Source: a virus | Length of the DNA: 64,000 nt | Strand: one strand, 5' to 3' | IMG/VR virus record: IMGVR_UViG_3300042448_001752 | Span: 31,474 to 95,473 of that record | Part shown: positions 1,418-59,583 of the stretch, piece after piece | Layout of the letters: every line of letters starts with the position of its first letter | Position numbering within the stretch: position 1 is the first letter of the stretch | Position numbers and translations under genes: made by a program | Notes under the pieces: generated by a model | The model's database searches: none | The model's input: the letters and a program-made list of their open reading frames with translations, nothing else | What the model was told of the DNA's origin: nothing

Positions 1418-1425
1418 TATTTATC
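1418..1425 (+). promoter_or_regulatory. TATTTATC element upstream of the sheath gene (candidate late promoter)
   Basis: TATTTATC lies 34 bases before the sheath ATG, in the only sizeable gap before it. It matches a set of TATTTATA/C elements placed just upstream of genes in the same orientation. A promoter role is inferred from that recurrence. Confidence 0.45.
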
Positions 1426-1459
1426 AATAAAATAAATTAATTAAGAAAACACAAGACTA

Positions 1460-4400
1460 ATGGCAACAAACAGTAAAGTATTTGTATCACCTGGAGTGTA
1501 TACTTCTGAAGTCGATTTAAGTTTCGTAGCACAGAGTGTAGGGGTTACTACACTAGGTATTGTAGGGGAGACATTAAAAGGTCCAGCCTTCGAACCTATT
1601 TTTATTACAAACTTCGACGAATTCTCAACTTACTTTGGGGGAAGTTCTCCCGAAAAATTCATAAATACTCAAATACCAAAATATGAAGCGGCGTATATCG
1701 CTAAATCTTATTTACAACAATCTAACCAATTGTTTGTTACAAGAATATTAGGTTTATCAGGGTATGATGCGGGTCCATCATGGACAATAACAACTAAAGC
1801 AAACGTAGACCCAGCAACAGTAGATTTCTATTGTGAAAGTGCTACTACGGTTAACTGTATTGACACATGTGTTGATTATAAAGTAGTTGACTTTGCAATT
1901 GATTTCTCAGGTTGTAATAACAGTTTTGGTTCAATATCATTTATTAACCCAACACAAATTCCGGCAGAAATTGCTGAAAAATTAGACATTCCTTACGAAT
2001 TGTTTGATGGAAGTTTATCAACTGTTCGTACAAACATGACTAACCAAATTTTTGATATTCTAAACGAACCGTCTTCAGAAAACACCTCTATTTATTATTA
2101 CGGACCAATTTCAGGAGAAACTTACGAAGCGTTTAGTCCTATCTTTACTGCAGAAACAAATGTATATGGTGTTAATAATGTTGACGCTAACCTTATTGAT
2201 TACGCGGCACCAGAAAATGACCCTTGGTATTATAGTTTATTTGATAATCTTGGTAGTGCGGCATATAGTGGATATTCATTTTGGTCTATTGTCACAGGTT
2301 TGACTTTAACACCACCTGTTATAACAACGACAACAACATTACCAGGAACAACAACAACAACAACAACAAATCCTTGTATTACACCAACCCCAATATCAAC
2401 AACAACTACAACAACTGCTGCACCTGTTAATTGTTATACAGGAACTTTAATTGGTAGAATTTATGTGTTTTCAGGAACTGCGTTTACTGATTATGATGAT
2501 TTAGTAATTGCAACACTTCGTTCAAGAGGTTTGGCGACATACTCAACAGATGATGGACCTGTTTATGAGGTTAGCGGATTAACAGATGTTACTATGGATT
2601 GTTTAGGTGCATATTCAGGTGTAACTAAAAATCCATACGCAACATTTGGTATTAATATTACAAATAAAGATGGTAACACGTATTTCTTTGAAACATCATT
2701 CCAAAATTCTGACCCTAAGTATTTACCAAAAGTATTTGGTTCATCTAACTTTGCAAAACCAAGAACAGTAGTTCCTTTATTTGTTGAAGAAAGATTCCAA
2801 GCTTTATTAAACTACGGATGGAGAAAAGGGTTTATTAGAGGTTTAAGTTGTAACTTAACAGCTTTACCTAACGCAAGACAAGGTTCTGACCCTACATCAA
2901 TCGCTTGGTATTTAGAACAATATCAATCACCAACATCACCGTGGGTAGTATCGGAATTAAGAGGTAACAAAGTTTACAACTTATTTAAATTTACAACAAT
3001 TGCTGATGGTGAGGCGGCTAACACGGAGGTTAAAATTTCAATAGCAAATATTTCATTTAACAATGGAACATTTGACGTATTAGTTAGAGATTTCTTTGAT
3101 TCGGACTCAAGTCCAGTTGTTATTGAAAAATTCACTAACTGTAATATGGACCCTAATGATAATGCGTTCATTGCGAAGAAAATTGGCACTATTGACGGTG
3201 AGTATGAATTGAATTCTAAATACGTTATGATTGAACTTAATGAAGACGCACCAATTGACGCATTACCTTGTGGATTCTTAGGATTTAATTTTAGAGAATA
3301 TGCGGGTGTTAGACCTCCATTCCCAATTATTAAACAAAAATATGATTTTCCAGGTGAGGTAGTATATAATCCACCATTTGGTTTATCTTCAGGAGCTGAC
3401 GATATTACAAGAAGTAATGGTGATAATGTACGTAGAACTTATTTAGGTATTTCTGATACTATAGGTATTGACGTTGATTACTACTATTACAAAGGTAAAC
3501 AACTTCCTTTAGATATTTGTAGTGATTCTACGGGTGAAGATTGGAACTTTAGAAGTAGAGGATTCCATATGGATATTGATGCAAGTGGTATTACTATAGC
3601 TAATGCATTTGTAACAAGTGGAACCCCAGCATTCTATTGTGGTAGTGCACCGTTTACTAAAGACCCTGATACAGAAGCTAACCCTTACTACAGAATTTTT
3701 GCTCGTAAGTTCTCATTCTTAGTACAAGGAGGATTTGACGGATGGGATATCTATAGAGAACATAGAACAAACAGTGATAGATTCGTATTAGGTAGAAATG
3801 GATACTTAAAAGGTTCATGTCCATCAATCAAATATCCTACGGCGACAGGTTGGGGAGCATTTAAACAAATTACGGTTGGAGATAACACACAAGGTTACGC
3901 TAACACCGATTACTACGCTTACTTATTAGGACAAAAAACTTTTGTTAATCCTGAAGCGGTTAATATTAATTTATTTGTTACACCTGGTGTCGATTATGTA
4001 AATCATTCTGACTTAGTTGGAAGTGCGGTTGATATGATTGAAAATGATAGAGCTGACTCACTTTATGTTTGTACAACTCCTGACTTCAACATGTTTGTTC
4101 CAACAACAACTAATACGCAGGATTTAATTTATCCACAAGAAGCTGTTGATAATTTAGACACTGCAGGAATAGACTCTAACTATACCGCAACTTACTACCC
4201 ATGGGTATTAACAAGAGATACTGTAAACAACACACAAATCTATCTACCTGCAACTGCTGAGGTTACAAGAAACTTAGCTTTAACAGATAACATAGCATTC
4301 CCTTGGTTTGCCGCGGCGGGTTACACAAGAGGTATTGTAAATGCTATTAAAGCACGTAAGAAGTTAACACAAGAAGATAGAGATACTTTATATCAAGGTC

Positions 4401-4795
4401 GTCTTAACCCAATTGCAACCTTCTCTGATGTTGGAACTGTAATTTGGGGTAATAAAACACTACAAGTTAGACAATCAGCTCTTGATAGAATTAACGTAAG
4501 AAGATTATTACTTCAAGCTCGTAAATTAATTTCTGCGGTGTCTGTAAGATTACTGTTTGAACAAAACGACCAAAAAGTAAGACAAGATTTCTTAGATGCG
4601 GTTAACCCTATATTAGACGCAATCAGAAGAGACAGAGGTTTATACGATTTCCGTGTAACAGTTTCTTCAGATGCTGCTGACTTAGATAGAAACCAAATGA
4701 CGGGTAAAATCTACGTTAAACCTACAAAGTCGTTAGAATTTATAGACATTACGTTCTATATTACTCCAACAGGTGCATCTTTTGAGAACATCTAA
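1460..4795 (+). CDS. gp18: Contractile tail sheath protein (T4 gp18-like)
   Basis: Forms the contractile outer tube of the tail. The N-terminus (VFVSPGVYTSEVDLS) and the last 200 residues, including FPWFAAAGYTRG, QGRLNPIATF, GNKTLQ and INVRRLLLQ, are classic sheath motifs. At 1111 aa it is far longer than T4 gp18 (659 aa). The extra length lies in the middle: a Thr-rich linker at about residues 288-323 (runs of 5-7 Thr broken by PG, NP and AAP) leads into an added domain, probably exposed on the outside of the tail. Cys residues cluster in the inserted part. Start chosen at the first ATG, after an A-rich leader. The next gene of the sheath-tube pair (tube) follows after one intervening gene. 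Family certain; function of the insert unknown. Confidence 0.96.
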   Translation: MATNSKVFVSPGVYTSEVDLSFVAQSVGVTTLGIVGETLKGPAFEPIFITNFDEFSTYFGGSSPEKFINTQIPKYEAAYIAKSYLQQSNQLFVTRILGLSGYDAGPSWTITTKANVDPATVDFYCESATTVNCIDTCVDYKVVDFAIDFSGCNNSFGSISFINPTQIPAEIAEKLDIPYELFDGSLSTVRTNMTNQIFDILNEPSSENTSIYYYGPISGETYEAFSPIFTAETNVYGVNNVDANLIDYAAPENDPWYYSLFDNLGSAAYSGYSFWSIVTGLTLTPPVITTTTTLPGTTTTTTTNPCITPTPISTTTTTTAAPVNCYTGTLIGRIYVFSGTAFTDYDDLVIATLRSRGLATYSTDDGPVYEVSGLTDVTMDCLGAYSGVTKNPYATFGINITNKDGNTYFFETSFQNSDPKYLPKVFGSSNFAKPRTVVPLFVEERFQALLNYGWRKGFIRGLSCNLTALPNARQGSDPTSIAWYLEQYQSPTSPWVVSELRGNKVYNLFKFTTIADGEAANTEVKISIANISFNNGTFDVLVRDFFDSDSSPVVIEKFTNCNMDPNDNAFIAKKIGTIDGEYELNSKYVMIELNEDAPIDALPCGFLGFNFREYAGVRPPFPIIKQKYDFPGEVVYNPPFGLSSGADDITRSNGDNVRRTYLGISDTIGIDVDYYYYKGKQLPLDICSDSTGEDWNFRSRGFHMDIDASGITIANAFVTSGTPAFYCGSAPFTKDPDTEANPYYRIFARKFSFLVQGGFDGWDIYREHRTNSDRFVLGRNGYLKGSCPSIKYPTATGWGAFKQITVGDNTQGYANTDYYAYLLGQKTFVNPEAVNINLFVTPGVDYVNHSDLVGSAVDMIENDRADSLYVCTTPDFNMFVPTTTNTQDLIYPQEAVDNLDTAGIDSNYTATYYPWVLTRDTVNNTQIYLPATAEVTRNLALTDNIAFPWFAAAGYTRGIVNAIKARKKLTQEDRDTLYQGRLNPIATFSDVGTVIWGNKTLQVRQSALDRINVRRLLLQARKLISAVSVRLLFEQNDQKVRQDFLDAVNPILDAIRRDRGLYDFRVTVSSDAADLDRNQMTGKIYVKPTKSLEFIDITFYITPTGASFENI

Positions 4796-4806
4796 AATAA
4801 AATAAC

Positions 4807-4837
4807 AAACAAGTCGACATAAAACCTCGGCTTGTTT
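4807..4837 (+). terminator. Hairpin after the sheath gene (likely terminator or RNA-stabilising stem)
   Basis: An 11-bp stem (AAACAAGTCGA with TCGGCTTGTTT, one G-T pair) closes a 9-base loop, 12 bases after the sheath stop. The only U-rich stretch is the end of the stem, so termination may be partial. It shows that the in-frame TTG at 4832 is inside the hairpin and not a likely start for the next gene. Confidence 0.6.
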
Positions 4838-4852
4838 AGCCAAATAGTGAAA

Positions 4853-5751: not shown

Positions 5752-5759
5752 TATTTATA
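5752..5759 (+). promoter_or_regulatory. TATTTATA element upstream of the tail tube gene (candidate late promoter)
   Basis: An exact TATTTATA lies 40 bases before the tube ATG, followed by an A-rich leader. The rest of the 125-base gap (5675-5799) holds nothing else I can recognise. Confidence 0.5.
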
Positions 5760-5799: not shown

Positions 5800-6288
5800 A
5801 TGGCTGATTTATTGATGAAAATGCCGATACCGTATGAACCAAAAAGACAAAACAGGTTCATTCTTCGGTTCCCAACAACATTGGGTATTAACGAATGGTT
5901 CGTTGAATCTACGTCAAGACCACATATAACTATAAACCCTGTTGAGATTCCCTTCTTAAACACTTCAACCTATGTTGCAGGTCGTTTTACTTGGGGAACT
6001 CTTAACGTTAAATTCCGTGACCCTATTGGTCCGTCTGCGTCTCAAGCTCTTATGGAGTGGGTACGTCTATGTGCTGAATCAGTGACAGGTCGTATGGGTT
6101 ATGCCGCAGGATACAAAAAGAACGTCGATTTAGAAATGTTAGACCCAACTGGTGTTGTTGTTGAGAAATGGATTTTAGAGGGAACATTCTTATCGGATGT
6201 TAACTTTGACTCATTGGCTTATAATACAGACGCTTTAGCAAGTATCACAGCTACAATGCGAATGGACCGTTGTATATTAGTTTATTGA
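5800..6288 (+). CDS. gp19: Tail tube protein (T4 gp19-like)
   Basis: A 162-aa subunit of the rigid inner tail tube, matching T4 gp19 (163 aa) in length. The N-terminal part (PYEPKRQNRFILRFP) and the central GTLNVKFRDPIGPSASQALMEW are characteristic of the gp19 family, which has a fold shared with Hcp. It lies two genes after the sheath, the usual pairing. A strong terminator follows, and a TATTTATA element precedes it, so it is probably made as its own abundant transcript. ATG start after an A-rich leader. Confidence 0.95.
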   Translation: MADLLMKMPIPYEPKRQNRFILRFPTTLGINEWFVESTSRPHITINPVEIPFLNTSTYVAGRFTWGTLNVKFRDPIGPSASQALMEWVRLCAESVTGRMGYAAGYKKNVDLEMLDPTGVVVEKWILEGTFLSDVNFDSLAYNTDALASITATMRMDRCILVY

Positions 6289-7334: not shown

Positions 7335-7342
7335 TATTTATA
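7335..7342 (+). promoter_or_regulatory. TATTTATA element upstream of the tape measure gene
   Basis: Exact TATTTATA, 19 bases before the ATG at 7362, in the short gap after the chaperone frameshift extension. Confidence 0.45.
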
Positions 7343-7361: not shown

Positions 7362-9299
7362 ATGGCAGGACCTGAAGATAACGAACTTGGCGGTGACTTT
7401 TTAAGTAAAGTCCAAGGAGCCCTCGAACAGAGTGTTGGTAGAATTACCGACGCTTTGGCAACTAATTTACGTGCTGGTGATATTGCGAAACAAATTCAAG
7501 AAATTGATGATAAAGCGACAACCATTGTTAAATCTTTTGGTCAAGGTCGTGAAAACATTGTTAATTTAAAGGCCGCTATGGCCGATGCGGCCTCTGAAGT
7601 TGAACGAATGGGGGGTAGTTTTGATAATATTGTCACTATCCAAAAAGACGTTGCCGAAGCATTAGGCAGAAATTTAATACTAACATCAAGTTCTTATAAA
7701 GATTTATATGCAACTGCCGAAGTTACAGGTGAATCCGCAAAAACCCTTGTCACTAATTTTAAAGCTGCGGGTATGTCCGTATACCAAGTGGCGGGTGAAA
7801 TGAATAAAGTTGTTAATGTTGCTAGAGAGTCAGGTGTTAACGCTCAGGCGGTTAGTAAAGAGGTTCTTTCAAACATGACCGCATTAAATCAATTTAATTT
7901 TGCGGGTGGTGTTACAGGTTTGGCTAAGATGGCGGCCCAAGCGTCGTTATTAAGAGTTGATATGAATAGGACTCTTACATTGGCGGATGACTTATTTAGT
8001 CCTGATAAGGCAATTGAATTAGCGGCATCTATGCAAAGATTAGGTGTTGCAAATTCTGAATTATTAGACCCTTTACGTTTAATGGATATGGCTCAGAATG
8101 ACCCCGCTGAACTTCAAAACCAAATCTCAAAAATGAGTGAACAGTTTGTTCAATTGGGTGAGGACGGTAAGTTTGAAATTATGCCAGGTGCTAAAAGACA
8201 ATTAATGGAGGTTGAAAAGTCTTTGGGTATGAATAAAGGTGAATTAGCTAAAATGGCGTTAGCAAGTGCTGAGGTTGCGGATAAAATGCAAAAAATTAAA
8301 TTCCCGTCAAGTTTTACTGAAGAAGAAAAAGGGTTAATTGCGGGTATGGCCGAAATGGGTGCTGGTGGAGAGTATAAAATTCAATTAGGTGACGAAGAAT
8401 TAGGTATTAATGAAGCAATTGAAAAACTACAAAAAGACCCTGACCAAATGAAGGCTCTTAAAGAAATGGCTCAACCAAAAACTATGGAGGATTTAGCCAA
8501 AGACCAACTAACAATTTCAAAATCTATGGATAAGTCGTTAGAGTCTATTGCCAATAGAACAGGACGAGCATTGGCTGGTAGTAAAATTGCTAATCAAGCC
8601 TTAGAAGCTCCAAAACTATTATACGATGCGGGAGCTGAAGCCTTATCTGGGGATAAATTAAGTAGTAGAAATATTAGAAGTGGTTTAGGTTCAGGGGCAG
8701 AAGAAGTTTTAGGTTCAATTAACAAGATATTTAAAGGTGAAGGTTCTTTAAGTGATACTTTTAATGTGGTTAAAGATAGTATGTCAACTAGTGCCAAATT
8801 TGTAGACGGAGCTTGGTCTCAGGCATTAGATAAGGGGGCCGCAGCGGCATCAAATTTGGCAAAAGAACAAAACATTTTTCTTGAAATGTTACAAAATGGT
8901 AGTAAAAAATTAGGTAATGCTTTTATGACTTCCGAAAATATACCCACAACAACTGCGAAAGATATGTTAAAGTTACCTGGTCAAAATGTTGAATTTTTAC
9001 CTGAAGATACCTTAGCGTCGTTCACTAAAGGTAAGGATGTTTTATCTGCGTTAATGGGTTCTAATAATAGAAACGAACCCCCAACACAAAGAATGACCGA
9101 TTCAGGGCCTGTTAATATTAATTTAAACATAACCGCACCTTCAAATATTGATACTTCTCAACTTATGTTAGCCTTTGAAAATTCAGGAGTTAAAGAAGCC
9201 ATGGTTACTGCGGTTACTAAAGGTCGATATAATAATGGATTAACCGCCCCAACATCTAATCAAACACAATTGATGGAAATGGCAAGTATGAGAGTCTAA
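7362..9299 (+). CDS. Putative tail tape measure protein
   Basis: A 645-aa, largely helical protein directly after the tail chaperone pair, the standard place for the tape measure that sets tail length and fills the tube. Helix-rich stretches rich in Ala, Lys, Glu and Met run through most of residues 1-480 (for example FLSKVQGALEQSVGRITDAL, KSFGQGRENIVNLKAAMADA). The C-terminal 60 residues change to an Asn/Thr-rich strand segment (VNINLNITAPSNIDTS) that may dock in the baseplate. T4 gp29 is 590 aa, so the length fits. No enzymatic domain is seen. Assigned mainly from position and composition; an internal head or hub protein is less likely. Confidence 0.6.
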   Translation: MAGPEDNELGGDFLSKVQGALEQSVGRITDALATNLRAGDIAKQIQEIDDKATTIVKSFGQGRENIVNLKAAMADAASEVERMGGSFDNIVTIQKDVAEALGRNLILTSSSYKDLYATAEVTGESAKTLVTNFKAAGMSVYQVAGEMNKVVNVARESGVNAQAVSKEVLSNMTALNQFNFAGGVTGLAKMAAQASLLRVDMNRTLTLADDLFSPDKAIELAASMQRLGVANSELLDPLRLMDMAQNDPAELQNQISKMSEQFVQLGEDGKFEIMPGAKRQLMEVEKSLGMNKGELAKMALASAEVADKMQKIKFPSSFTEEEKGLIAGMAEMGAGGEYKIQLGDEELGINEAIEKLQKDPDQMKALKEMAQPKTMEDLAKDQLTISKSMDKSLESIANRTGRALAGSKIANQALEAPKLLYDAGAEALSGDKLSSRNIRSGLGSGAEEVLGSINKIFKGEGSLSDTFNVVKDSMSTSAKFVDGAWSQALDKGAAAASNLAKEQNIFLEMLQNGSKKLGNAFMTSENIPTTTAKDMLKLPGQNVEFLPEDTLASFTKGKDVLSALMGSNNRNEPPTQRMTDSGPVNINLNITAPSNIDTSQLMLAFENSGVKEAMVTAVTKGRYNNGLTAPTSNQTQLMEMASMRV

Positions 9300-9315: not shown

Positions 9316-9323
9316 TATTTATA
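9316..9323 (+). promoter_or_regulatory. TATTTATA element upstream of the 1693-aa baseplate gene
   Basis: Exact TATTTATA, 15 bases before the ATG at 9339, within a 39-base gap. Confidence 0.45.
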
Positions 9324-9338: not shown

Positions 9339-12300
9339 ATGCCTGATAGTACATTATCGTTTGTTAACAGTTCTTCATTTAGAAATGCGTTATTAGCCAC
9401 AAATTTGGAGCCATATGATGTACCTGGTGTTTACACACCACCCTCAGGACCTATTGCCTATGAAATACAACAAACAGTAAGTAATGTTATTGATTCACCC
9501 GATGGTTTAATTGCTAATGACCCATTTGCAGCGATATTATATCCATTAAATGAATACGGACCTAATGGTGGTTTTAATACAACTATCACATACAATGGAC
9601 CTCCATTACCCGTTAACCCTAATCAAGGGGAGTACAGTCCAACAGATACGGTATTAGACTTAGTTAATGAGTTTTATATCGACGCCGCATATATTGAAAA
9701 CATATATGGACCTTCTGGTGGGTTTAATGATATGGTAGTTATTACGGATATCCAAAACAATAATAAAATTTATCAACCTTATTGGAATCCACCAACATTT
9801 GTACCGTCTTCTTATACACCATATAGTATATTATTTTCAGATAACCCAAATGGAACTGACGGTTCATTATCTCAGGATTCTTATATTGCTAAAATTGGGG
9901 CGGAACAACTTAATTACTTATTCCAACAAAGAATTGCCGCTGAGATATTTCAAAATACTGTTGGTCAAGTTAACTTAGATTCTTTAAGTGACCCTTTTGA
10001 GGCTGCCTTAATTGCAACAGGACAAGAACCATTAATTTATAAAAACTATAGAATTACTGTCCCTGAAAATCCTATTGTTGCGGCGTTTGATTTGGCAACT
10101 AGATTAGCAAGTGCTTATTGGCCTGTTTCTATGATTCCTGGTGATTACTTCACACAACAACACAAGCCAGGGTTTTTATCACAACAAACATCAAACGCTT
10201 TAAATGTTATCAATCAACTAACGGGAGGGTTTTTAGGTCCAATTCTAAACACATCTAGAAGTGCATCTGAATTATTTTTGGCCAATACGGGTAACGGTCA
10301 AAGGTCAGTTTTATTTCGTAATATTGATTATAACAGATATCAACCTGATTATAAAAATCAATATGGTGGATTATTAGGCGTTGCTCAAGGTTTGGTTAAT
10401 TTAGCTGTTAATTTAATTAATCCTAATAATGGAACTTTAGTTGGTGGTTATTATGTTGGCAGTAGAAATGCGGAACCATCAACAATAACATCACCAGCAA
10501 ATCAAATACCAGTTAATGTCTTTGGACAACAGGACCCTGCGCCTGTTTATGGACCTTCAGAACTTGCAATATTATATGAAGGTAATAATGAAGTGTTAAA
10601 ATTTGGTCTTGCGGCAAAACCATTAAGTGATGGTGGTGGTATTGACGGACAATTTGTTTGGACTTCACCTAAATATAAAGGTAATGCTGGTTTTAATGCA
10701 ACACCTGGTGGAGGTACAGGTAGTTTAGACCCTGAGTTTAACCAAGTTAGTAGTTACTATACAAGAGATGAGTCAACTAATATAACATTCAAAGAGACTT
10801 CAATTTTAGACCAAACTCAAAGATTAATTGAGTCTGCGGATAATGTTACGGGTATTTCTCGTTTAAAACATGTTGGTAATGCAATTAACCAAGTTAGTAA
10901 GGTATTCCATGATGGATATAAAGAAATAACTAAAGGTTCTCAAGTATTATCGTACACTGATTTTACTACGGGGGCAGAAAAAGGAATTGAGTATTGTCGT
11001 GTATTCACTAAGGACACACCTTACTACACTTACGCCGATTTACAAAAAACTGATGGTATTACTACTTCGGGTAGACGTTTTAGTAATTCTGTATTTGATA
11101 ACACATACAACTTAAACATAGCCCCACTTAAAAACCCTGGTTCAACAAATATTCAAATGAATAACCAAGGTAAATTAGTCGCTAAAAAATATATGTTTTC
11201 CATTGAGAATTTAGCTTGGAGAACTTCAAGTAGACCAGGATTTACATATGATGAATTACCTACATGTGAGAAAGGGCCTAATGGGGGTAGAGTTATGTGG
11301 TTCCCACCTTATGATTTAAAATTCTCAGACCAAAGTTCTGCGAATTGGAATTCACAATCATTTTTAGGTAGACCTGAACCAATTTACACTTATAAAGATA
11401 CAAGTAGAACAGGAACACTTTCTTGGAAAATTATTGTTGACCACCCTTCTGTTATGAATGTTATTGTTGAAAAACAATTAAAGGGTCAAAGTAAAGAAAA
11501 ATTAAATTCAATCATTGATTCGTTCTTTGCGGGTTGTGTGAAGTATGATATCTATCAATTAGGACTTAAATTTAATACGATACCGACTAAGGATTTGTAT
11601 ACCTACCAAGAGATATTAAATAACCCTAGAATAACTAAAGAAGAGTTACAAGGTATTAATCAATCTATTCCTAAAGATAATTCGGGTGGGTTGGTGACTA
11701 ACACTGTTGCAACTCCCGCAAATAATACTAATAAGGCGGACACACCTGACAATTCAGGCGTTGAATTTGAAAACGAATTTAACGAATTATCGTTCTATTT
11801 TTACAACGATATTCCCGACCCTAACACAAATAAAATAGTTTCGTCAGTACCTTATCAAGTAACCTATGGAAGTTATACCGCGTCATCATTCATTAGTAAT
11901 TATGTAGATAAAGCCAATGCAGTATTTGCACCAAATTTAAGTTATTGTACAACAAACTCATCATATTGTGATACTAATAAAAAAGTTAAAGAGTTTTATG
12001 ATACGGTAATTATCGACAACTTTAATACAATTGACAATGCGGATAACGGTTTTATTAAAAAGGCGTTTAATTTATTAAAAGAAAAAAACGCAACAATTAA
12101 TTTAACTTTAGTTGGTTCGGCTTCAGCACCTGCCTCAGTACCATATAACATAAATCTTTCTAAAAGAAGAAATGATTCTGTTTTACAATATCTTAAAATT
12201 AGAGGTAAAGAAATTGGGTGTGATATAACACCGTTTATTGATAGTAAAAAATTTATTTTAAATGAATCCGCTTCAGGTGAAACAGAAACTGTGGTGATAC

Positions 12301-21497: not shown

Positions 21498-21505
21498 TAT
21501 TTATA
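21498..21505 (+). promoter_or_regulatory. TATTTATA element upstream of the 74-aa gene
   Basis: Exact TATTTATA, 13 bases before the ATG at 21519, in a 39-base gap after the hub gene. Confidence 0.45.
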
Positions 21506-21518: not shown

Positions 21519-21743
21519 ATGGACACAAAATTAATATTAGACAACTATTTAGGTAAAAACACCAGAAGCACTGAGAAAGACTTGGGTAATGGTTCTAAAC
21601 AAGTTTGCGATTTAGACACAGGAGATTGTTATACTATCAGAATGAAGGATGGTTTAATTGAAAGAGTTGACAATACAATGACAAAAAATAAAAAAATTCA
21701 GGTTGAAACTCTAACAGGAGTGAAACAACTTTTAAACGGGTAA
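21519..21743 (+). CDS. Small protein of unknown function, 74 aa
   Basis: Not recognised. A soluble, charged 74-aa protein with a central strand-rich stretch (KQVCDLDTGDCYTIRMKDG) carrying two Cys six residues apart. It has its own TATTTATA element and lies 4 bases before the next gene, so the two are probably co-transcribed and late-expressed. It could be a small virion or scaffold component. Confidence 0.65.
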   Translation: MDTKLILDNYLGKNTRSTEKDLGNGSKQVCDLDTGDCYTIRMKDGLIERVDNTMTKNKKIQVETLTGVKQLLNG

Positions 21744-22434: not shown

Positions 22435-22440
22435 AATATA

Positions 22441-22463: not shown

Positions 22464-22476
22464 GTTTAAAATTTAT

Positions 22477-22505: not shown

Positions 22506-22540
22506 TATGATAATATAAATCATTAAATACTTTAACAACT

Positions 22541-49830: not shown

Positions 49831-50007
49831 TTAATCAATTGGGTCTTTTTTACCTAAACCACCATAAAGTCTCATAAGTTTTAGGGATTCATGATAGTTT
49901 TTTTCTAATCTGTCTAGTTCTTTTTCAGGGACACCTTTTTCACAGGCAACCTCATACGCATCTTTAGATTCAGAAACCAATTTTGATATTGTTTTTAGTA
50001 GTTTCAT
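49831..50007 (-). CDS. Small helical protein on the minus strand, 58 aa
   Basis: A 58-codon leftward gene in the gap between the adhesin and the glycosyltransferase; a track limited to 60 codons misses it. The product begins MKLLKTISKLVSESKDAYEV and is helical and charged throughout (KELDRLEKNYHESLKLMRLYGG). An exact TATTTATA lies 4 bases upstream of its ATG on the minus strand (50012-50019), supporting expression. No family is recognised; the motif so close to the ATG may mean a leaderless message. Confidence 0.65.
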   Translation of the reverse strand: MKLLKTISKLVSESKDAYEVACEKGVPEKELDRLEKNYHESLKLMRLYGGLGKKDPID

Positions 50008-50011
50008 ATAG

Positions 50012-50019
50012 TATAAATA
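50012..50019 (-). promoter_or_regulatory. TATTTATA element upstream of the 58-aa minus-strand gene
   Basis: Reads TATTTATA on the minus strand, 4 bases before the ATG of the minus gene. It shows that the element follows gene direction. The distance is too short for a classical leader if the element is a -10 box. Confidence 0.45.
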
Positions 50020-50078
50020 TCTACCAAAACACCATTTATTAAGATGGATGATTAATTATATTTATTTTAAAACATAAA

Positions 50079-51062: not shown

Positions 51063-51079
51063 TATTTATAGTATAAATA
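51063..51079 (+). promoter_or_regulatory. Palindromic TATTTATA-G-TATAAATA element upstream of the 462-aa fibre
   Basis: An exact TATTTATA (51063-51070), one G, then its exact inverse (51072-51079): a 17-base perfect palindrome ending 3 bases before the ATG at 51083. The rightward half matches the recurring element. The inverse half points at no minus-strand gene. Confidence 0.45.
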
Positions 51080-51082: not shown

Positions 51083-52471
51083 ATGACTAACACGACATCT
51101 TTACTTCAACAAAAAAACGAATGTGATGTAATTACAATATTTCCAATGACCGTTGAGTGTTTAGTTAACAATCCGTCATCACAAAATGCGACTGATGGAG
51201 GTTTATCTATTTCTATAACAGGAGGAACACCACCATACATAGTTGCTTGGAGTAATGGTAATATATCTCCGGCAATTAATAATTTAGGTGCTGGTAGTTA
51301 TACGGCAATAGTTACTGACTATTCTTGGTCAGGGAGTGGTCCTGATTATACGGCAACTACAACATGTGTGTTAACCGCACCTATAACACCTACAACTACA
51401 ACCACAACAACGGTTGCTCCTGTATTACTCTATGATATTTGTTTAACAGTGTATAAACAACCAAGTAATTATCAAATACACTTTAACCCTAATGGTATAT
51501 ATAATGGTATCTATAGTAGTGGTTATCAATCATGGATATCAGATGACTCAGTATACCAAATTGTTTGGGGTACACTATACCAGTCATGGACTGTAATTCC
51601 GCCCCCAACAAATCCTGGTTATTATTTACTATCACCCTCACCATATCCACCTTTAACGGGATGGTATATAAATGGTGCGTTAGGAACTGTTGTATCAAAT
51701 CAAGGTCTTTGTGTACCGTTACCAAGTAACCCGTCATTTACATATTCACTTACTCAACCAACTTGTATATGTGATGGTAATATAATTATAACGGCTTCTA
51801 ATGGAACACCACCATATCAGTACTCAGTTGATAATGGAGTGACATTCACTAGTAATTCAGGGCTCTTCACAGGAAAATGTCCTGGAACTTATAGTTTACA
51901 AATTAAGGATTCGTTAAATAATTTAAGTACTGTTTCTACGGCTACCTTAAATAATTTTATTGGAATAACAACATATACTCTTAGTTTGTCACCAGTATCT
52001 ATTACAACGGTAAACAATAACACAACTGTAACAAAACAATATACTTGTACCGTAAATGTTTCACCACCAATCCCTGTTGGAACAACAATTACGTTTGATG
52101 CACAACACATAAATGTGCTTGGTAGAGGGCCTGCCTCAACTGACGCAACTATTGTGACTAATAGTGTTTTAACTAAAAATTCAACAGTAATACCAATAAC
52201 TTCAAGCCCGTCATCAAGTAATACTACCACACAATTAGGTGCCGGTTGTCAATCGGCGCCAATACATAATACAACCCAAACTGATAACTGGATTTCGGTA
52301 TCAATGACAAATGGTGATACCATGGTTATTAATACCACAACAACTATGACTAAAATACAACCAGTACCTCATTGTTTCTTTGCGGATTTCGGTGACACAT
52401 TTTTTGCAGTAAATGGGGTTATTAATGGATGTAGTTGTTGTACGTTAATTATGCCAAATAAAGCGGTATAA
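51083..52471 (+). CDS. SprB-repeat fibre protein with Thr linker, 462 aa
   Basis: A smaller relative of the 1095-aa adhesin. Residues about 25-90 form one SprB-like repeat (GGTPPYIVAWSNGN, LGAGSYTAIVTDYS), followed by a run of seven Thr (about 105-111), a domain with LSPSPYPPLTGWYINGAL, and a second repeat-like unit (NGTPPYQYSVDNGV, KCPGTYSLQIKDSL) at about 235-280. The C-terminal half is strand-rich with several Cys. Probably a fibre or fibre tip on the virion surface. Confidence 0.7.
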   Translation: MTNTTSLLQQKNECDVITIFPMTVECLVNNPSSQNATDGGLSISITGGTPPYIVAWSNGNISPAINNLGAGSYTAIVTDYSWSGSGPDYTATTTCVLTAPITPTTTTTTTVAPVLLYDICLTVYKQPSNYQIHFNPNGIYNGIYSSGYQSWISDDSVYQIVWGTLYQSWTVIPPPTNPGYYLLSPSPYPPLTGWYINGALGTVVSNQGLCVPLPSNPSFTYSLTQPTCICDGNIIITASNGTPPYQYSVDNGVTFTSNSGLFTGKCPGTYSLQIKDSLNNLSTVSTATLNNFIGITTYTLSLSPVSITTVNNNTTVTKQYTCTVNVSPPIPVGTTITFDAQHINVLGRGPASTDATIVTNSVLTKNSTVIPITSSPSSSNTTTQLGAGCQSAPIHNTTQTDNWISVSMTNGDTMVINTTTTMTKIQPVPHCFFADFGDTFFAVNGVINGCSCCTLIMPNKAV

Positions 52472-52489: not shown

Positions 52490-52497
52490 TATTTATA
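52490..52497 (+). promoter_or_regulatory. TATTTATA element directly before the collar/fibre gene
   Basis: Exact TATTTATA, only 3 bases before the ATG at 52501. If it is a promoter the message would be leaderless, or a ribosome-binding role must be considered. Confidence 0.35.
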
Positions 52498-52500: not shown

Positions 52501-54933
52501 ATGACTTATATATTAAAAAATACATCGGGATTAATTAATACTAGATTAACAGACACTGGAAGACAAAAATTATCTCAAGGTAATTTTAACATCGAGTATT
52601 TTCAAATTGGTGACGGAGAAGTTTCATATAACTCTTTACCAAGTTCATATAATCAAGCTAATACAAACATATTTGAACCTAATTTTAATTCACAAAATTC
52701 AGCACCAACACAATCAAATAAACAATATGTAAAATATCCTTATTATGTTGATGGTGTAACAGGTAATACTTATGGTATTCCTTATTCAGAACCTGTGGTT
52801 TCTCCTGTATATAACCGAGCGGCAATGAGAGGATTTTTTACGGGAGACCTTAGTGCGACAACAATTAATTGGAGTGCAATTACAAATAGTTCTCATGTTA
52901 TTAATTCTAATTATGTTGTTGATATGTCAGTATTAACTGGCGGTACCACGATTATGTTAATTTATTCAGGTTGTAACACCAATATTGTTAGAATGCCTGC
53001 TATAGGTGATTTATTAACAATCTATTATGATGGTAATGGTGACCACAATTGTGCCTGTAGTACTTACCCAACGCCAAGCCCAACACCTTCACCAACCCCA
53101 ACTCCAACCCCATCATATGACCCTTGTATCTTACCACCAACCCCAACTCCGTCACCAACATTTTGTCCAATAACACCGACACCAAATTGTGACCCTGTTG
53201 TGGAACCAGAATGTCTTATGGATATGAGTAGTTGTTACCCAATGATGACATATAAAATTGTCGATATTTGTTTAGGTGTTTACACATTAGATAGGCCAAC
53301 ACCTAATTTTTCAGGAAGTTCAAATGTTTGTTATGCGAGAACTATCGTATATCCGCCAAATATGACATCACTTTATGATACACTAACACCATGTAAACAT
53401 TGGAATGAGGATGTTATTAATTTTGAGTCTGTTTGTTATACAGATGAGTTTGATGTTAAAATTTGGAATATGAATATTCCATGGTCGGAAAATCCTGCGG
53501 GGTTAATTCCGACAATAAATGAAGGATTTGCGGATTTTGGTTCAGCGACATATATCGGGTCAAAAGAATATTTGGGTTATATGTCGAATAGTGGGCAGAC
53601 TGACAGCAGTTCAGTATACTACTACAACTCTTTCGATGAAAAAGTTACTGTACAACCAAAAGACCAAAAATCTATTGCCATTATTCACTATACAAATCAA
53701 AGTATTGATTTCTTTTATGGTGAAAAATTTGCATTAGAACCTTATGACCCTACGGCGCCTGCTAATACTATTGGGCAAGCAAGAAACTTTAGACTACATA
53801 TTCCATGGCTTATGTGGCATAAAAATCCTGAATGTTGTTTAGGTGAAACTTTTTGGGTTGACCCTCCAGGGTATGACGGATTAAATTTATTTCAAGTACA
53901 ATACTTGAAATCTACTAAGAATGCGGATATGAATAACCCTGGTATGAGATACTACCAATTATGGGATACTAATACAAATGATGACGGGTTCCCAAGTAGA
54001 GTTGGTAAAGTTTTCCCTGACCAAAAAATTATAGTGATTGATGATGAAGAGATTATTGCTGCTATGTCTTATAAATCAAATCGTAATTGGACTCTACCTT
54101 CACCAAAACTTACTTTAGTTGCACCAAATACATGTGGTACTGATAATACTTCATATATTGGTGTGTTAACAGGTGATACTGAGTATATGTATGTGACTTA
54201 TAGAATTAGTAATACGATTAATTTTACTAATTCATTACATTGTAACTATTATACTAGAATACAAGGTCCAAATTTAACTTGTATACCAAGTGCGTCGCAA
54301 AACGTGTCAATTAGGTTTGGTCCGGAGTTTGGTTGTTTAAATCAACCAGATTATACACCAACAACTACAACAACTACAACTACAACAACATTATGTCCAT
54401 CTGTTTGTTATACGCCACAAGGATTTTACGGTGATAAATTTGAAATTATATGTCAAAAAGTTATTGGTGATATTAGACCTGATTCGTCCGAGTGGAAAAT
54501 AATCGATGTAACATCACAATTAAGTGCAACAACCGTTGGAGGGTATATTACTCAAAACGGTATAACAGGTAATACATTTACTATTACTCAAGATGACTAT
54601 GATAATGCACCTTATTACGATTTAAATACATATATACCTCTAACCCCTGTTGGAAGCACTACACCATCTTTAAATTTTGGGGACGAATATTATTTCTATG
54701 GTTCGTTAGAAACGGATATTCAAGCTACAATATATGAGATGAGGTATAAAATTAATTTAGGTGTTGCTGAATTTCAAGCAACTTCAAACCCAACATGGAC
54801 TCAAGGGACTGACTCATATATAACTGATATTGGTCTTTACGATTCTGATAAGAATCTTATGATTATATCAAAGATGCAATCACCTGTTTTAAGACAAGGG
54901 ATTCAACAGTTCCTGGTTAAATTTGATTTCTAA
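52501..54933 (+). CDS. Tail-collar/fibre protein with Pro/Thr and Thr linkers, 810 aa
   Basis: The N-terminus (ILKNTSGLINTRLTDTGRQK then LSQGNFNIEYFQIGDGEVSY) has the LTDxGRxxL plus GDG pattern of phage tail-collar fibre proteins, the part that docks on the baseplate. A Pro/Thr/Ser linker with Cys lies at about residues 189-232 ([20 protein letters not shown]), then a large conserved domain, and a second linker of ten Thr at about 621-632. The C-terminal 170 residues form a new domain. The alternation of linker and domain is shared with the sheath insert and the minus-strand 1164-aa protein. A short terminator-free gap separates it from the resolvase gene. Confidence 0.7.
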   Translation: MTYILKNTSGLINTRLTDTGRQKLSQGNFNIEYFQIGDGEVSYNSLPSSYNQANTNIFEPNFNSQNSAPTQSNKQYVKYPYYVDGVTGNTYGIPYSEPVVSPVYNRAAMRGFFTGDLSATTINWSAITNSSHVINSNYVVDMSVLTGGTTIMLIYSGCNTNIVRMPAIGDLLTIYYDGNGDHNCACSTYPTPSPTPSPTPTPTPSYDPCILPPTPTPSPTFCPITPTPNCDPVVEPECLMDMSSCYPMMTYKIVDICLGVYTLDRPTPNFSGSSNVCYARTIVYPPNMTSLYDTLTPCKHWNEDVINFESVCYTDEFDVKIWNMNIPWSENPAGLIPTINEGFADFGSATYIGSKEYLGYMSNSGQTDSSSVYYYNSFDEKVTVQPKDQKSIAIIHYTNQSIDFFYGEKFALEPYDPTAPANTIGQARNFRLHIPWLMWHKNPECCLGETFWVDPPGYDGLNLFQVQYLKSTKNADMNNPGMRYYQLWDTNTNDDGFPSRVGKVFPDQKIIVIDDEEIIAAMSYKSNRNWTLPSPKLTLVAPNTCGTDNTSYIGVLTGDTEYMYVTYRISNTINFTNSLHCNYYTRIQGPNLTCIPSASQNVSIRFGPEFGCLNQPDYTPTTTTTTTTTTLCPSVCYTPQGFYGDKFEIICQKVIGDIRPDSSEWKIIDVTSQLSATTVGGYITQNGITGNTFTITQDDYDNAPYYDLNTYIPLTPVGSTTPSLNFGDEYYFYGSLETDIQATIYEMRYKINLGVAEFQATSNPTWTQGTDSYITDIGLYDSDKNLMIISKMQSPVLRQGIQQFLVKFDF

Positions 54934-55659: not shown

Positions 55660-58600
55660 TCAATTTTGAGCAGTAGTTGAGGTTATTATAATTGGAACAC
55701 CACAGTTTGCGGTTGTTACTGTAAAAGAATAGTTTATTTCAAAAACTTGGTCAATAGATAATACAGAGTTGTTGTATGAACCAATACTTAATTGAGCATT
55801 CGAAATAAATCCGGTACAAAATGATGAAGGTACCATTGCCTGTAAATAAACCGATACCACAGCACCTGTTTGAACTGAAAAAGTATTTGAATAGACACCA
55901 GCAGCTAAGCTAGATTGAAACGTATATACTATAACACCATTAACTTTTATATTACCCGTTGTCCAAGAACAATAGGTTTTTGTGTGAGTGTAAGACATGG
56001 TACAAGGTTGTGGTGTTACAGTTGTTGTTGTTGTTGTTGTTGGTGTTGCCGCCGCAGAACAAGCATTACAACTAGGGTATGTTGAGAAACCAGTGAAGTA
56101 ATTACCAGACCAAGTAATTACATTTGTGTTTGGGGAAAATTGTCCCGGTGAACATAAGGAAGAGCCAATAAATTTCCAACACACCCCTGTAGTAGGGTTA
56201 CGTAAAACATTCCCAACAATAGTTGTTGGTGTTGCCGGTACAGTTTGAACTAAGACCTGCAGGGTACTAGATGAATTGTTATTATTGTTAGTACAATCTG
56301 TAAACACATAATAAGTTAAACATGGAGTTGGAGTTACGGTTGATGATGGTGTTGGAGGTAATCCTGATGTTACGGTAGGAGTTGGCGTTTGTGTTGGTGT
56401 TTGGGTTGGCGTATTTGTTGGTGTACTTGTTGGCGTAATAACACAGTTTAAACAATCACCTAAATTAGAAAAACCAAAAGGACCTGCAAGTAAATCCATT
56501 TGGTTAATACCTATGATATCGTTGTTTACCCCAATATAACTCACACATTTTGACACACCATCAACAAGTGATTCAAAAACCATATATATTTCTATATCAA
56601 GACCTGGAGTTGGGTTCTCAAGGACACTTGTTGTATAATACATACTACCATTAAAACAGTCTTGGAATTGTTTACTTGATGGACATTTAATTAAGTCATT
56701 AACAGTATTAAATGTTACGTTTCCTAAAAAGTCACACGGTCTGTCAATTGCGGGTGTAGGTGTTGGTGTGGTTGTTACTGTAGGTGTTGGTGTTGGTGTA
56801 ATAGAACTAATCGTTGCATCAACACTAACATTTGAACATACATTTATTGGTGTCTGAGTAGGTGTCTGAGTAGGTGTTGGGGTCTGAGTAGGTGTTTGCG
56901 TTGGAGTAGGAGTAAAGTCACAATCAAATAATGCCGTAAAGTCAACATCACACGGTAATGTAGGTGTTGGCGTTGGTGTAGGACAAATACCTGCAAGTAA
57001 ATTGTCGTCACATAAATCAGGACAAATACTATAACAAGGTGATTTACCCGATAATAAACAAATACCACCTAAACTGGTCGATAAACACCATTGAGTGTTT
57101 GTCGTGTCATAATAAATAAATAATGAATTTAATGTACCAACCCAATAAAAATTAATACCATAAGCACCAACTCTTACGTAGTTATCGTCCCATAAGACAT
57201 TGCCCGTATCATATAAACAATAGTTTATTACCGTACAAAAACCTACAGGTATTGATGTTTCAGTTGGTGTTGGCGTTGGTGTTTCAGTTGGTGTAGGAGT
57301 ATTTGTTGGTGTTTGGGTTGGAGTTTCGGTTGGTGTAGGAGTATTTGTTGGTGTTTGGGTCAGCCCATTTGTTGGCGTATTTGTTGGTGTTTCAGTTGGT
57401 GTTGGTGTTTGGGTTGGTGTATTTGTTGGTGTTTCAGTTGGAGTATTTGTTGGAGTTTCAGTTGGTGTTTGGGTTGGTGTTTCAGTTGGTGTTGGTGTTG
57501 GTGTTTCATTTGGGGTTGGAGTATTTGTTGGTGTAGGTGTATTTGTTGGTGTTTCAGTTGGCGTATTTGTTGGTGTTTCAGTATTTGTTGGTGTATTTGT
57601 TGGTGTTTCAGTATTTGTTGGAGTATTTGTTGGAGTATTTGTTGGTGTTTCAGTTGGAGTATTTGTTGGAGTATTTGTTGGGGTATTTGTTGGTGTTTCA
57701 GTTGGCGTTGGTGTAACTGTTGGTGTTGGAGTATTTGTTGGAGTATTTGTTGGTGTAGGTGTATTTGTTGGTGTTTCAGTTGGCGTATTTGTTGGTGTTA
57801 CAGTATTTGTTGGGGTAACTGTTGATGTAGGTGTATTTGTTGGGGTATTTGTTGGGGTATTAGTCGGAGTTTGAGTCGGCGTTTGAGTCGGAGTATTTGT
57901 TGGAGTTACAGTATTTGTTGGAGTATTAGTTACAGTATTTGTTGGAGTATTTGTTGGAGTATTTGTTGGAGTATTTGTTGGTGTTTCAGTTGGAGTATTT
58001 GTTGGAGTTACAGTGTTTGTTGGAGTATTAGTTGGCGTAGATGTTGGAGTTTCAGTTGGGCTTGGTGTAGGAGTATTTGTTGGAGTTATTGTATTTGTTG
58101 GTGTTACAGTATTAGTTGGAGTATTAGTTGGAGTATTAGTCGGTGTATTAGTTGGTGTATTTGTTGGAGTTACAGTATTAGTTGGCGTTATTGTATTTGT
58201 TGGTGTTGAAGTATTTGTTGGAGTATTAGTTGGAGTTGTTGTTGGTGTTGGTGGAGGATTTGTTGAGGTAAGAGTTGGGGTGGGTGTTGGAGTTTCAGTT
58301 GGACTTGGTGTAGGAGTATTTGTTGGAGTTACAGTATTTGTTGGTGTTGGTGTATTTGATGGTGTTGAAGTATTTGTTGGTGTTATTGTATTTGTTGGTG
58401 TTGATGTATTTGTTGGCGTTATTGTATTTGTTGGTGTTACAGTATTAGTTGGAGTATTAGTCGGCGTATTAGTCGGCGTATTAGTTGGAGTATTAGTTGG
58501 AGTTGGAGTTGGGGTTGGGGTTTGGGTTGGAGTGTTAGTTGGAGTTGGAGTTGGGGTAGGTGTTGGGCTAAGTGGTGGTGTACAATACCAACTTGGAGCA

Positions 58601-59154
58601 TTACACATGTTTAGAGTAACAGTTACAGTTGAATAAGTTGCGTTAGTTTTAACGTCATTAATATATAAATATGGAATTGGGTTTAGTATATTAACACACA
58701 TGTTGAATGTACCAGGCACCTCAAATGGGTATGATAAAGTTTCTCCAAGCTGACAATTATACATGTCAACAAATACTACTCCGTCAACTGCAGGGTCAGT
58801 ATTACCTACGGCATCATTTAAGTCCTTAGAATCAATATAAATGTCAACACACGTACAAGTTGGTAATGGTATAATATTGGGACTTTGACATTTTGCCGTA
58901 TGGTCGACCATACAAGCGGCACAACCACCTCCAGGTGTATACTCAAAATAGGTGTTAACACTATTATAGTGAGTCTCAACATAACCAGCAAGTTTGGCCT
59001 CCCAACATACATCATTTGTGTCATAATAAATTTTACCTGCAATAAACTCTGAGTTTGTAACTCCATCAATTGTTGGCGTACATGGCCTAATAATTACTGC
59101 ATTGTTAAAACAACATCTTAAAAATACTGTATTACATTCTGGTATTTGCGGCAT
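55660..59154 (-). CDS. Giant Cys-rich and Pro/Thr-repeat surface protein, 1164 aa
   Basis: A minus-strand gene in an otherwise rightward region. Cys-rich domains (residues 1-190; about 640-745; about 830-940; 965-1050) are separated by Pro/Thr linkers. The longest linker, about residues 195-635, is made almost only of Pro-Thr units alternating with Asn, Gln or Glu ([19 protein letters not shown]), like a mucin-type stalk. The last domain ends in a strand-rich segment. Such a rod would hold receptor-binding domains far from the particle; Thr would be natural sites for O-glycosylation. Two TATTTATA/C elements, both in minus orientation, precede it and its minus-strand neighbour. No signal peptide is visible, so it is probably a virion protein. 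Confidence 0.7.
57245..58580 (-). repeat. Minisatellite coding for the Pro/Thr stalk
   Basis: About 1.3 kb of degenerate 12-base and 6-base repeats; on the plus strand the commonest unit is GTATTTGTTGGA or GTTTCAGTTGGT (Thr-Asn-Thr-Pro or Thr-Glu-Thr-Pro on the coding strand). Units vary in the third bases but keep the reading frame. Runs such as 57937-57990 are nearly perfect. Slippage could change stalk length between phage relatives. Confidence 0.9.
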
Positions 59155-59190
59155 TTATTTTAGTTTTTTTGTTATATGGTTATCTCAGTC

Positions 59191-59198
59191 TATAAATA
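59191..59198 (-). promoter_or_regulatory. TATTTATA element upstream of the minus-strand 1164-aa gene
   Basis: Reads TATTTATA on the minus strand, 36 bases before the ATG at 59154. The surrounding 190-base gap (59155-59344) holds no other clear feature; a 41-codon minus open frame at 59180-59305 is too weak to call. Confidence 0.5.
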
Positions 59199-59344
59199 CC
59201 TTTAAGGTTCTTTTTATTTTTAAAAAAAATTGTAATACAAATAACGTTTTTTACAAATTTCTCACTTAACCCAACGTAAATTTGTTGTATATTAATTAAT
59301 TTCATATTCCATTCCTATAATAGTATCAATTTAGGTTTTAATGG

Positions 59345-59560
59345 TTATAAACTTAAATAAGTGATAACTTCACAACTATTATTATCAATAACCTTTAGAT
59401 TAAAACTTAACTGACTTCCCATAACTGACGGAATAACAAACGAGTATGGCGCCGAATTGATTGTGTCAATATAAATACATATTGTTATTGGGTCGTCACA
59501 AAGATAAATATCAAATGGAGATGCTCCTGTAATGTTGTTAATTGTTATATTTGTTGACAT
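59345..59560 (-). CDS. Small strand-rich protein related to fibre domains, 71 aa
   Basis: A 71-aa strand-rich protein (ITINNITGASPFDIYLCDD, APYSFVIPSVMGSQLSFNLK, DNNSCEVITYLS) whose plan (a lone strand-rich domain ending in an Asn-Cys pair) recalls the repeat units of the fibre proteins here. It is upstream of and in the same direction as the 1164-aa gene. A TATTTATC on the minus strand (59576-59583) lies 15 bases before its ATG. Perhaps a fibre tip or decoration domain encoded alone. Confidence 0.7.
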   Translation of the reverse strand: MSTNITINNITGASPFDIYLCDDPITICIYIDTINSAPYSFVIPSVMGSQLSFNLKVIDNNSCEVITYLSL

Positions 59561-59575
59561 TGAGATTTCTTTTTA

Positions 59576-59583
59576 GATAAATA
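59576..59583 (-). promoter_or_regulatory. TATTTATC element upstream of the 71-aa minus-strand gene
   Basis: Reads TATTTATC on the minus strand, 15 bases before the ATG. The gap between this and the rightward primase gene (59561-59636) would hold divergent start signals; I see no obvious one for the primase. Confidence 0.45.

Follow-up and report, generated by a model that had tools for sequence, protein, structure and literature searches.

To our knowledge, late transcription has been little mapped outside the T4-like phages of Proteobacteria and cyanobacteria. In T4, the late promoter octamer TATAAATA is placed at -13 to -6 in passages of PMC1524935. Regarding the Bacteroidota, sigma A promoters carry a -33 TTTG and a -7 TAnnTTTG element, and passages of PMC9723704 put the -7 box of F. 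psychrophilum at -12 to -5. Here we analyzed a window of 64,000 nucleotides (nt), the whole stretch from base 31474 to base 95473 of the virus record IMGVR_UViG_3300042448_001752, in which an octamer, TATTTATA or a close variant, stands before many genes. A first-pass annotation of the window had proposed this octamer as a candidate late promoter and had thought of a polymerase specificity related to that of T4; both ideas gain support from the comparative sequence evidence below, which includes a remote gp55-like gene in relatives. We consider it probable that the octamer is a late promoter of a gp55-type variant, at which host polymerase would be directed by a divergent gp55-like sigma factor, with a class of short-spaced copies that would give leaderless messages. 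In a search of open-access papers we found no phage promoter with the sequence TATTTATA and no description of late promoters of Flavobacterium phages; subscription papers and preprints lay outside the search.

The source record has 95,473 bases in total and is probably a fragment, since it is classed as linear. Gene lists were made mechanically, with ATG starts only and the longest open reading frame (ORF) taken first; the first list of distances to the ATG dropped 6 of 76 ORFs (those starting below 1600, plus 2758), and later counts used ORFs of at least 50 amino acids (aa). All 13 octamers reported by the first-pass annotation were recovered at their coordinates and strands, in gene orientation and 3-40 nt before an ATG, as were four copies within plus-strand genes (22886, 37932, 46425 and 49342). 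Eleven further minus-strand copies had escaped it, three within minus-strand genes (58664, 59470 and 59503) and eight opposite plus-strand genes or in gaps (4855, 20775, 21372, 31302, 37666, 40545, 51072 and 55588). The last letter of the octamer is better given as A/C/T, TATTTATT being also part of the motif. The octamer sites before genes are the following:

1418 to 1425, plus strand: TATTTATC, 34 nt before the tail sheath gene (1460-4795)
5752 to 5759, plus strand: TATTTATA, 40 nt before the tail tube gene (5800-6288)
7335 to 7342, plus strand: TATTTATA, 19 nt before gene 7362-9299 (645 aa, without a confident family)
9316 to 9323, plus strand: TATTTATA, 15 nt before gene 9339-14420 (1693 aa, without a confident family)
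21498 to 21505, plus strand: TATTTATA, 13 nt before gene 21519-21743 (74 aa)
25947 to 25954, plus strand: TATTTATC, 21 nt before the DnaB-like helicase gene (25976-27358), a non-virion exception
30818 to 30825, plus strand: TATTTATA, distal copy, 30 nt before the gp25-like gene, preceded by a terminator-like hairpin
30845 to 30852, plus strand: TATTTATT, proximal copy, 3 nt before the gp25-like gene, predicted leaderless
30856 to 31314, plus strand: gp25-like baseplate wedge gene (PF04965, E 2.3e-11, above cut-off; phrog_261 and phrog_43), with a predicted leaderless message
33210 to 33217, plus strand: TATTTATC, 14 nt before gene 33232-38718 (1828 aa)
50012 to 50019, minus strand: TATTTATA, 4 nt before gene 49831-50007 (58 aa, N-terminus MKLLKTISKLVSE...)
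50059 to 50066, plus strand: TATTTATT, 12 nt before gene 50079-51056 (325 aa, phrog_4417, function unknown)
51063 to 51070, plus strand: TATTTATA, 12 nt before gene 51083-52471 (462 aa)
52490 to 52497, plus strand: TATTTATA, 3 nt before gene 52501-54933 (810 aa), predicted leaderless
59191 to 59198, minus strand: TATTTATA, 36 nt before gene 55660-59154 (1164 aa)
59576 to 59583, minus strand: TATTTATC, 15 nt before gene 59345-59560 (71 aa)

The total number of octamers in the window is at chance level, with 28 copies against a shuffle mean of 24.9 (32 of 100 shuffles reach 28), as would be expected if they arose by chance in A+T-rich intergenic gaps. Their placement tells otherwise. Within 48 nt upstream of 44 starts we counted 13 sense octamers; 300 dinucleotide shuffles averaged 0.84 and never exceeded 4. 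The reverse complement was found twice in the same stretches (1.5 expected). The first 31 kb of the source record, outside the window, added five sense copies before 26 genes (0.51 expected), so the special placement claimed for the octamer is borne out both within the window and in the rest of its record. Together with the enrichment in 12 genomes and the conservation among homologs described below, these shuffles leave chance a negligible probability, and we set it aside, the counts having refuted it.

The phage is a myovirus, and its baseplate protein is 24-28% identical to the counterparts of Flavobacterium phage immuto (NC_055915), Microcystis phage Mel-JY01 (PP395634) and an uncultured 484-kb phage. 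Searches of the phage collection with the first 25 kb (nucleotide) and with the 1828-aa protein gave no match. An IMG/VR search with one gene gave 234 closer relatives (the best 80 of the 234 were used), and ten long IMG/VR records were compared, some of them only partly. The lineage of the phage itself, here called the jumbo lineage (records of up to 322 kb), comprises G001-G005, chosen via the baseplate gene, and G012, G014 and G015, chosen via the gp55-like gene; G016 and G017, also chosen via the gp55-like gene, are immuto-like. The hosts of the group are probably Bacteroidota.

For each genome, every 8-mer in the 60 nt upstream of the longest-ATG ORFs of at least 50 aa was ranked against its genome-wide frequency. 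TATTTATA ranked first in the source record and immuto, second in G001-G005, G012, G014, G015 and G016, and fourth in G017; these 12 genomes are not independent, as G003/G004 and G001/G005 are close pairs. Upstream counts were 13 in the source record (0.45 expected), 24 in immuto (1.6), 50 in G001 (4.8) and 55 in G012 (2.8). The top word in the eight jumbo-lineage relatives was ATATTTAT, which overlaps TATTTATA, and that of G016 was TATCTTTA. With the same script, TATAAATA ranked first in T4 (100 kb); it did not stand out as an enriched word in the source record (3 copies, 0.45 expected, rank 151) or in immuto (6 copies, 1.6 expected, rank 330). The control Bacteroides phage crAss001, without the gp55-like family, had no TATTTATA upstream (0.47 expected), and in the Tenacibaculum phage PTm1 (100 kb), without a gp55-like gene, the host-type word TATATTTG ranked first and TATTTATA 237th. 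Regarding the flanks of the box in G001, G002, G003 and G005, an A stands directly before it in 68% of 197 sites and an A-rich stretch follows; beyond these, we found no extended conserved flanks in the four records.

As the first-pass annotation had pointed out, the element is the inverse of the T4 octamer. TATTTATA is the exact reverse complement of TATAAATA, and one could argue that a T4-type promoter on the opposite strand transcribes away from the gene: the variable last base would match T4 position -13, which passages of PMC1524935 describe as poorly conserved in T4 relatives, and the T4 form is 2-fold above expectation in the source record and G001. Between co-directional genes of seven genomes, however, the sense octamer occurred 286 times against 51 expected (5.6-fold), and the T4 orientation 124 times against 86 (1.4-fold). 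Antisense firing would also leave the fixed distance of 3-4 nt to the ATG, described below, unexplained. We therefore set the antisense promoter aside on the counts in co-directional gaps and regard it as highly improbable; the octamer appears to be read in the sense direction.

The octamer tends to stand where transcription units begin. Across six jumbo-lineage records it was found before 110 of 265 divergent genes. Of the co-directional genes, 100 of 212 with a gap of 30-79 nt had it, as did only 12 of 566 with a gap below 12 nt, a figure partly confounded by the little room in such gaps. Terminator-like hairpins were found upstream of 32 of 225 octamer genes, compared with 34 of 863 other genes (p 1.7e-7) and 44 of 2000 random places, in a count that includes the source record and G003.

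Many of the genes behind the octamer are virion genes. In the source record, G001 and G003 it precedes the sheath, tube, head completion and gp25-like genes; in G001 also the portal, prohead protease and an endolysin gene; and in immuto terL and the portal, sheath, tube, hub and tape measure genes. The sheath gene of the window has its homolog in immuto (E 7.8e-70), and the octamer stands before it at 25 nt in immuto and 37 nt in G001, and before the tube gene at 21 and 35 nt, respectively. Other sites are shared as well. A G002 gene with the same N-terminus as gene 21519-21743 has an octamer at 11 nt, a G015 gene with an N-terminus similar to that of 49831-50007 has the same spacing as in the window, and genes similar in size to 52501-54933, with the N-terminus ..(I/L)(I/L)KNTSGLI, have the octamer at 4 nt in G001, G002, G012 and G014. 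The absence that had been noted before SSB, UvsX/RecA, exonuclease, NrdF, NrdA and primase holds in the source record, and no octamer was found before these genes in G001, G003 or immuto either, nor before ThyA in G001 and immuto; gene 25494-25946, read earlier as a putative resolvase, also lacks it. Beyond 78.5 kb of immuto, its virion-gene half by a boundary of our own choice, lie 16 of 24 octamer sites and none of 17 early-type sites (p 9e-6).

We then measured the distance from the end of the octamer to the ATG in 365 genes of the source record, G001, G002, G012, G014 and G015 (G003-G005, near the source record or G001, were omitted). The spacing is bimodal: one gene lies at 0-2 nt, 86 at 3-4, 42 at 5-11, 138 at 12-17 and 98 at 18-52, where shuffled sequences gave 3.4, 2.1, 10.1, 8.4 and 39.5. 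The same bins held 3, 8, 8, 39 and 35 of the 93 genes of the immuto lineage (immuto, G016 and G017). Immuto genes with an octamer at 3-4 nt include 81525, 74579 and 142474. T4 showed distances of 14-29 nt only (14 sites in 100 kb), without the short class. The first-pass annotation had cautioned that copies 3-4 nt before the ATG would require leaderless messages, and the point was well taken, as these copies form a conserved class. Wrongly placed starts do not usually account for the short class, since a second in-frame ATG within 14 codons was present in only 13 of its 86 genes. Of 72 homologs of the gp25-like gene, 71 have TATTTATH 3-4 nt ahead of the ATG, with varying spacer letters and flanks; in the next gene, that of the 1828-aa protein, the octamer lies at 13-17 nt in 61 of 78. 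Both come from a test of 80 loci, in which the genes were located 72 and 78 times; many loci are near-identical and the counts are not independent. Some of the 17 misses have TATTTATG at that place (L076, L081) and others begin at a different ORF. The gp25-like gene of the window has two octamers 27 nt apart (30818-30852), of which the distal is absent in several lineages and the proximal in one of the 72 homologs.

What this spacing would mean for the messages depends on the start site. Under the T4 geometry, a gene with 3 nt between box and ATG would have its message start at the G of that ATG; under the flavobacterial one, the short class would start at the A or one base away, and the 12-17 nt class would have leaders of about 8-14 nt. 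The short spacing thus predicts leaderless virion messages, and the trough at 5-11 nt is what we would expect if leaders of a few bases translate badly. Host leaders have a median of 24 and 32 nt in passages of PMC9723704 and PMC7366714, which report 5.5% leaderless messages in F. psychrophilum and 3.7% of leaders below 10 nt in B. thetaiotaomicron, respectively. Single leaderless phage genes are already known and hence not new; a passing remark in the AR9 paper (PMC5312081) has phage transcripts often leaderless.

A tight distance to the ATG could also be explained by an element acting in the RNA, either in translation or as a repressor site near the start codon. Against it stand the two distinct preferred spacings and the small number of tightly packed co-directional genes with the octamer (the 12 of 566, with the confounding mentioned). 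Terminator-like hairpins also argue against it. They end a few bases before short-spaced octamers in G001 (17062 and 45051) and G002 (22675 and 67405), and lie within 60 nt of 8 of 55 short-spaced genes; if they terminate, the message can start only within about 20 nt of the ATG. At the two G001 sites the T-run ends 4-5 nt before the octamer, and a new transcript would have to start almost at the ATG. Adding that the cyanophage Mel-JY01 keeps the sequence while 13 of its 18 copies lie at 27-46 nt, we judge the RNA element very unlikely.

Box genes often encode N-termini of the form MK(Y/F/I)(L/I)ITE... or MKLLKTISKLVSE..., as in 49831-50007 of the window and in many genes of G002, G012 and G014 (e.g. 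G012 31641-33856). A loose version of this pattern fits 33 of the 86 genes in the short-spaced class and 66 of the remaining 279 with a box, compared with 145 of 1084 that have none. These N-termini resemble the capsid-targeting N-termini of T4 that are cut by the prohead protease, and such genes possibly encode packaged internal proteins. In addition, gene 51083-52471 has a weak, below-cut-off match to the SprB repeat (PF13573), SprB being the name of a Flavobacterium gliding adhesin.

The late boxes have no upstream -35/-33 element, as in gp55-dependent promoters. In immuto, 24 of 25 early boxes (TAnnTTTAG type) have a TTG upstream at the right distance, compared with 6 of 25 late boxes; for late boxes elsewhere, the figures were 3 of 23 in the source record, 11 of 83 in G001, 8 of 46 in G002, 16 of 106 in G012 and 13 of 69 in G015. 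Neither of the Bacteroidota sigma A elements, the -7 TAnnTTTG or the -33 TTG/TTTG, characterizes the late box. The host-type pair TTG-N17-24-TAnnTTTG forms a separate class, with 24 copies in G001 (4.7 expected), 15 in G002 (2.9), 23 in G012 (3.2) and 15 in G015 (2.1), pointing to hosts among the Bacteroidota; in the source record the pair shows no enrichment (2 against 1.0). The corresponding TAnnTTTA class of immuto has 31 copies (2.4 expected), and between 22 and 76 kb this genome carries a near-repeated early promoter unit, AGTTG(C), about 20 nt and TATATTTAGGTATCAATAATTAAAA, before many small genes. The window holds one contrasting site:

22476 to 22508, plus strand: TTTGAC, 18 nt and TATACTTA, a non-late promoter-like site before the SSB gene (22541), without octamer

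In the region upstream of SSB (22431-22540), a terminator-like hairpin is followed by this site, and the arrangement is similar in G001 and G002.

These data bear on whether the box could be read as a variant -7 element by host sigma A or by an RpoD-like phage sigma. The latter, of 266 aa and with regions 1.2, 2 and 4 in the G003 copy, is encoded at 110285-111085 of G003, 84605-85405 of G001 and in other jumbo-lineage records; it was found in G001-G005, G012-G014 and G018, and by synteny with G003 its gene would lie some 5 kb beyond the end of the source record. TATTTATA shares the leading TA of TAnnTTTG, and its predicted position fits the flavobacterial -12 to -5. The RpoD-like sigma is, however, absent from G015, immuto, G016 and Mel-JY01, which speaks against it as the octamer reader, and immuto, G016 and Mel-JY01 have the box yet no Sigma70_r2 match. 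The separate host-type class in G001 and immuto, with its -33 TTG, and the lack of octamer enrichment in crAss001 and of a high rank in PTm1 point the same way. We regard reading by sigma A or an RpoD-like factor as unlikely, though the likeliest of the alternatives. A phage-encoded RNA polymerase was considered too and rejected, as PF00623 matched 0 of 8 records and 14 of 14 controls; PF00940 matched none of the 8 records and no control either, and is uninformative.

The first-pass annotation had suggested looking for a gp55-like sigma gene elsewhere in the genome. Relatives do carry a remote one; the source record, a fragment, does not show it. The T4 late sigma family phrog_234 gave weak matches in G001 (E 0.0016) and immuto gp118 (78150-78872; E 0.0083), and at E 1 it also matches 7 of 14 cellular controls, so that it is weak evidence taken alone; the phrog_12791 profile matched in T4 only. 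The G001 and immuto proteins are homologous to each other (phmmer 1e-10), and their families have 263 and at least 600 loci in IMG/VR (the best 80 of each were used). In alignment A1 of the family, 27 of 53 members match phrog_234 at E 0.1, where the next family matches 5, and hhalign of A1 against seven gp55 proteins gave a probability of 90 and E 1.5e-6 over the N-terminal half. Sigma factors make up most of the best 50 solved structures for the predicted model (predicted local distance difference test score 76; best Foldseek E 0.0095), which superposes on the T4 gp55 chain of the open complex (7d7c_F) with Z 9.9 and 4.4 A over 123 residues; a sequence search of the PDB gave no sigma match. 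The A1 profile found no gp55-like gene in crAss001 or PTm1, and none was found in G002-G005, which are probably fragments. LR756508 gave one PF04542 match, below cut-off. A small gene with the N-terminus M.RP.KKEINLT and an octamer 3-4 nt before its ATG adjoins the gp55-like gene in three records:

G012, 136246-136617 and 136632-137348: small gene and gp55-like neighbour pair
G014, 11627-12001 and 12030-12746: small gene and gp55-like neighbour pair
G015, 109293-110006 and 110035-110409: the pair of neighbouring genes

The Microcystis phage Mel-JY01, deposited for a cyanobacterium, has the baseplate protein, the gp55-like sigma (family match E 1e-43) and the late box in common with the Flavobacterium phages. 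ATATTTAT ranks first among its upstream words (18 against 2.8 expected) and TATTTATA tenth (11 against 1.8), with examples before the gene adjoining terL and before the tail tube gene. None of its 18 copies lies at 3-4 nt. Box and sigma thus seem to occur together, and leader length seems to follow the translation-start mode of the host; this is our strongest single hint, from one genome.

Several observations weigh against a gp55-type late promoter. The DnaB helicase (phrog_19, E 2.3e-59), already singled out as an exception, has the box in the source record, in G001 (at 19 nt) and in G003, and lacks it in immuto, where TATTTATT stands before PhoH and GroES and 8 of the 24 octamer sites lie outside the virion half. 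Conversely, the box is absent before the major capsid gene in G001 and immuto, terL in G001, the prohead protease in immuto and the hub in the source record and G001. PTm1 has four TATTTATA against 0.97 expected, the relative LR756508 shows no octamer enrichment in one 42-kb piece of its 484 kb, and the 3-4 nt class is poorly represented in the immuto lineage (8 of 93). As to the sigma, the A1 search gave no gp55-like gene in the source record, its profile does not retrieve T4 gp55 at E 0.01, the scanned genes fall below the Pfam Sigma70_r2 cut-off or have no match, no Foldseek match of the model in the PDB reaches E 0.001, and a Z near 10 can be reached by a common arrangement in helical proteins. 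Seven of the nine gene-positive records (G012-G018) were chosen via the gp55-like gene, leaving immuto, G001 and Mel-JY01 as independent cases, and 9 of 10 long jumbo-lineage relatives also have the RpoD-like sigma. Finally, the gp45 clamp family phrog_223 matched 0 of 14 non-T4 records (T4 was found), although divergent clamps may escape. The link between sigma and octamer is correlative.

All things considered, the late promoter of gp55 type remains the reading we hold probable. TATTTAT(A/C/T) would be its core, a single box without -33 element that is read in the sense direction, most likely by host RNA polymerase loaded with the very divergent, phage-encoded gp55-like sigma. The start of transcription would lie some 4-5 nt beyond the box. 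If the ATG follows at 3-4 nt, the box would lie at about -11/-12 to -4/-5 and the message begin at the AUG; where it follows at 12-17 nt, the leader would measure roughly 8-14 nt. With less assurance, we lean towards a broader picture, a widespread late system of Bacteroidota myoviruses in which a distant gp55 branch would read the reverse complement of the T4 octamer. The start would lie so near that about a quarter of the late-box genes, including the gp25-like gene, are leaderless, amounting to a phage-wide shift in translation initiation in hosts without Shine-Dalgarno signals, which would be lost with the same sigma and box pair in a cyanobacterium.

If this holds, late infection would rely on a different mode of translation start. 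The bimodal spacing makes a sharp prediction of leaderless virion messages, a kind reported to be rare in the hosts, and late genes could be told from the letters alone by a simple, testable box, which would aid the annotation of hundreds of aquatic phage contigs. Diverged pairs of sigma and box, in T4 and in this group, would also allow a direct test of base recognition by gp55-type factors.

By comparison with known systems, the box resembles T4 late promoters in several respects: it is one octamer of the -10 type with no second box upstream, it stands before virion genes on either strand, and relatives carry a remote, putative gp55-like sigma gene. Six of the eight bases are shared (TAT--ATA), with the central AA of T4 being TT here. 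The T4 start lies 5 nt after the octamer, whereas the spacing in this group implies 3-4 nt; if the ATGs at 3-4 nt are used, the box would lie at most at the position given above, nearer to the start than the -13 to -6 of T4, whose spacing lacks the short class. With the sigma A promoters of Bacteroidota it has in common the leading TA and the predicted position, and it differs from them in lacking both TTTG and the -33 element, the sigma A-type class being separate in the same phages. The closest likeness for the short class is with the TA-led leaderless genes of bacteria, for which passages of PMC3160421 take a box about 10-12 nt before the start codon as the sign of a leaderless message. In those passages they concern 1 of 37 Bacteroidetes/Chlorobi genomes and 2.4% of genes. 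Unlike what is surveyed there, the short class described here takes in about a quarter of the late-box genes of one phage lineage, is conserved gene by gene and belongs to one promoter class.

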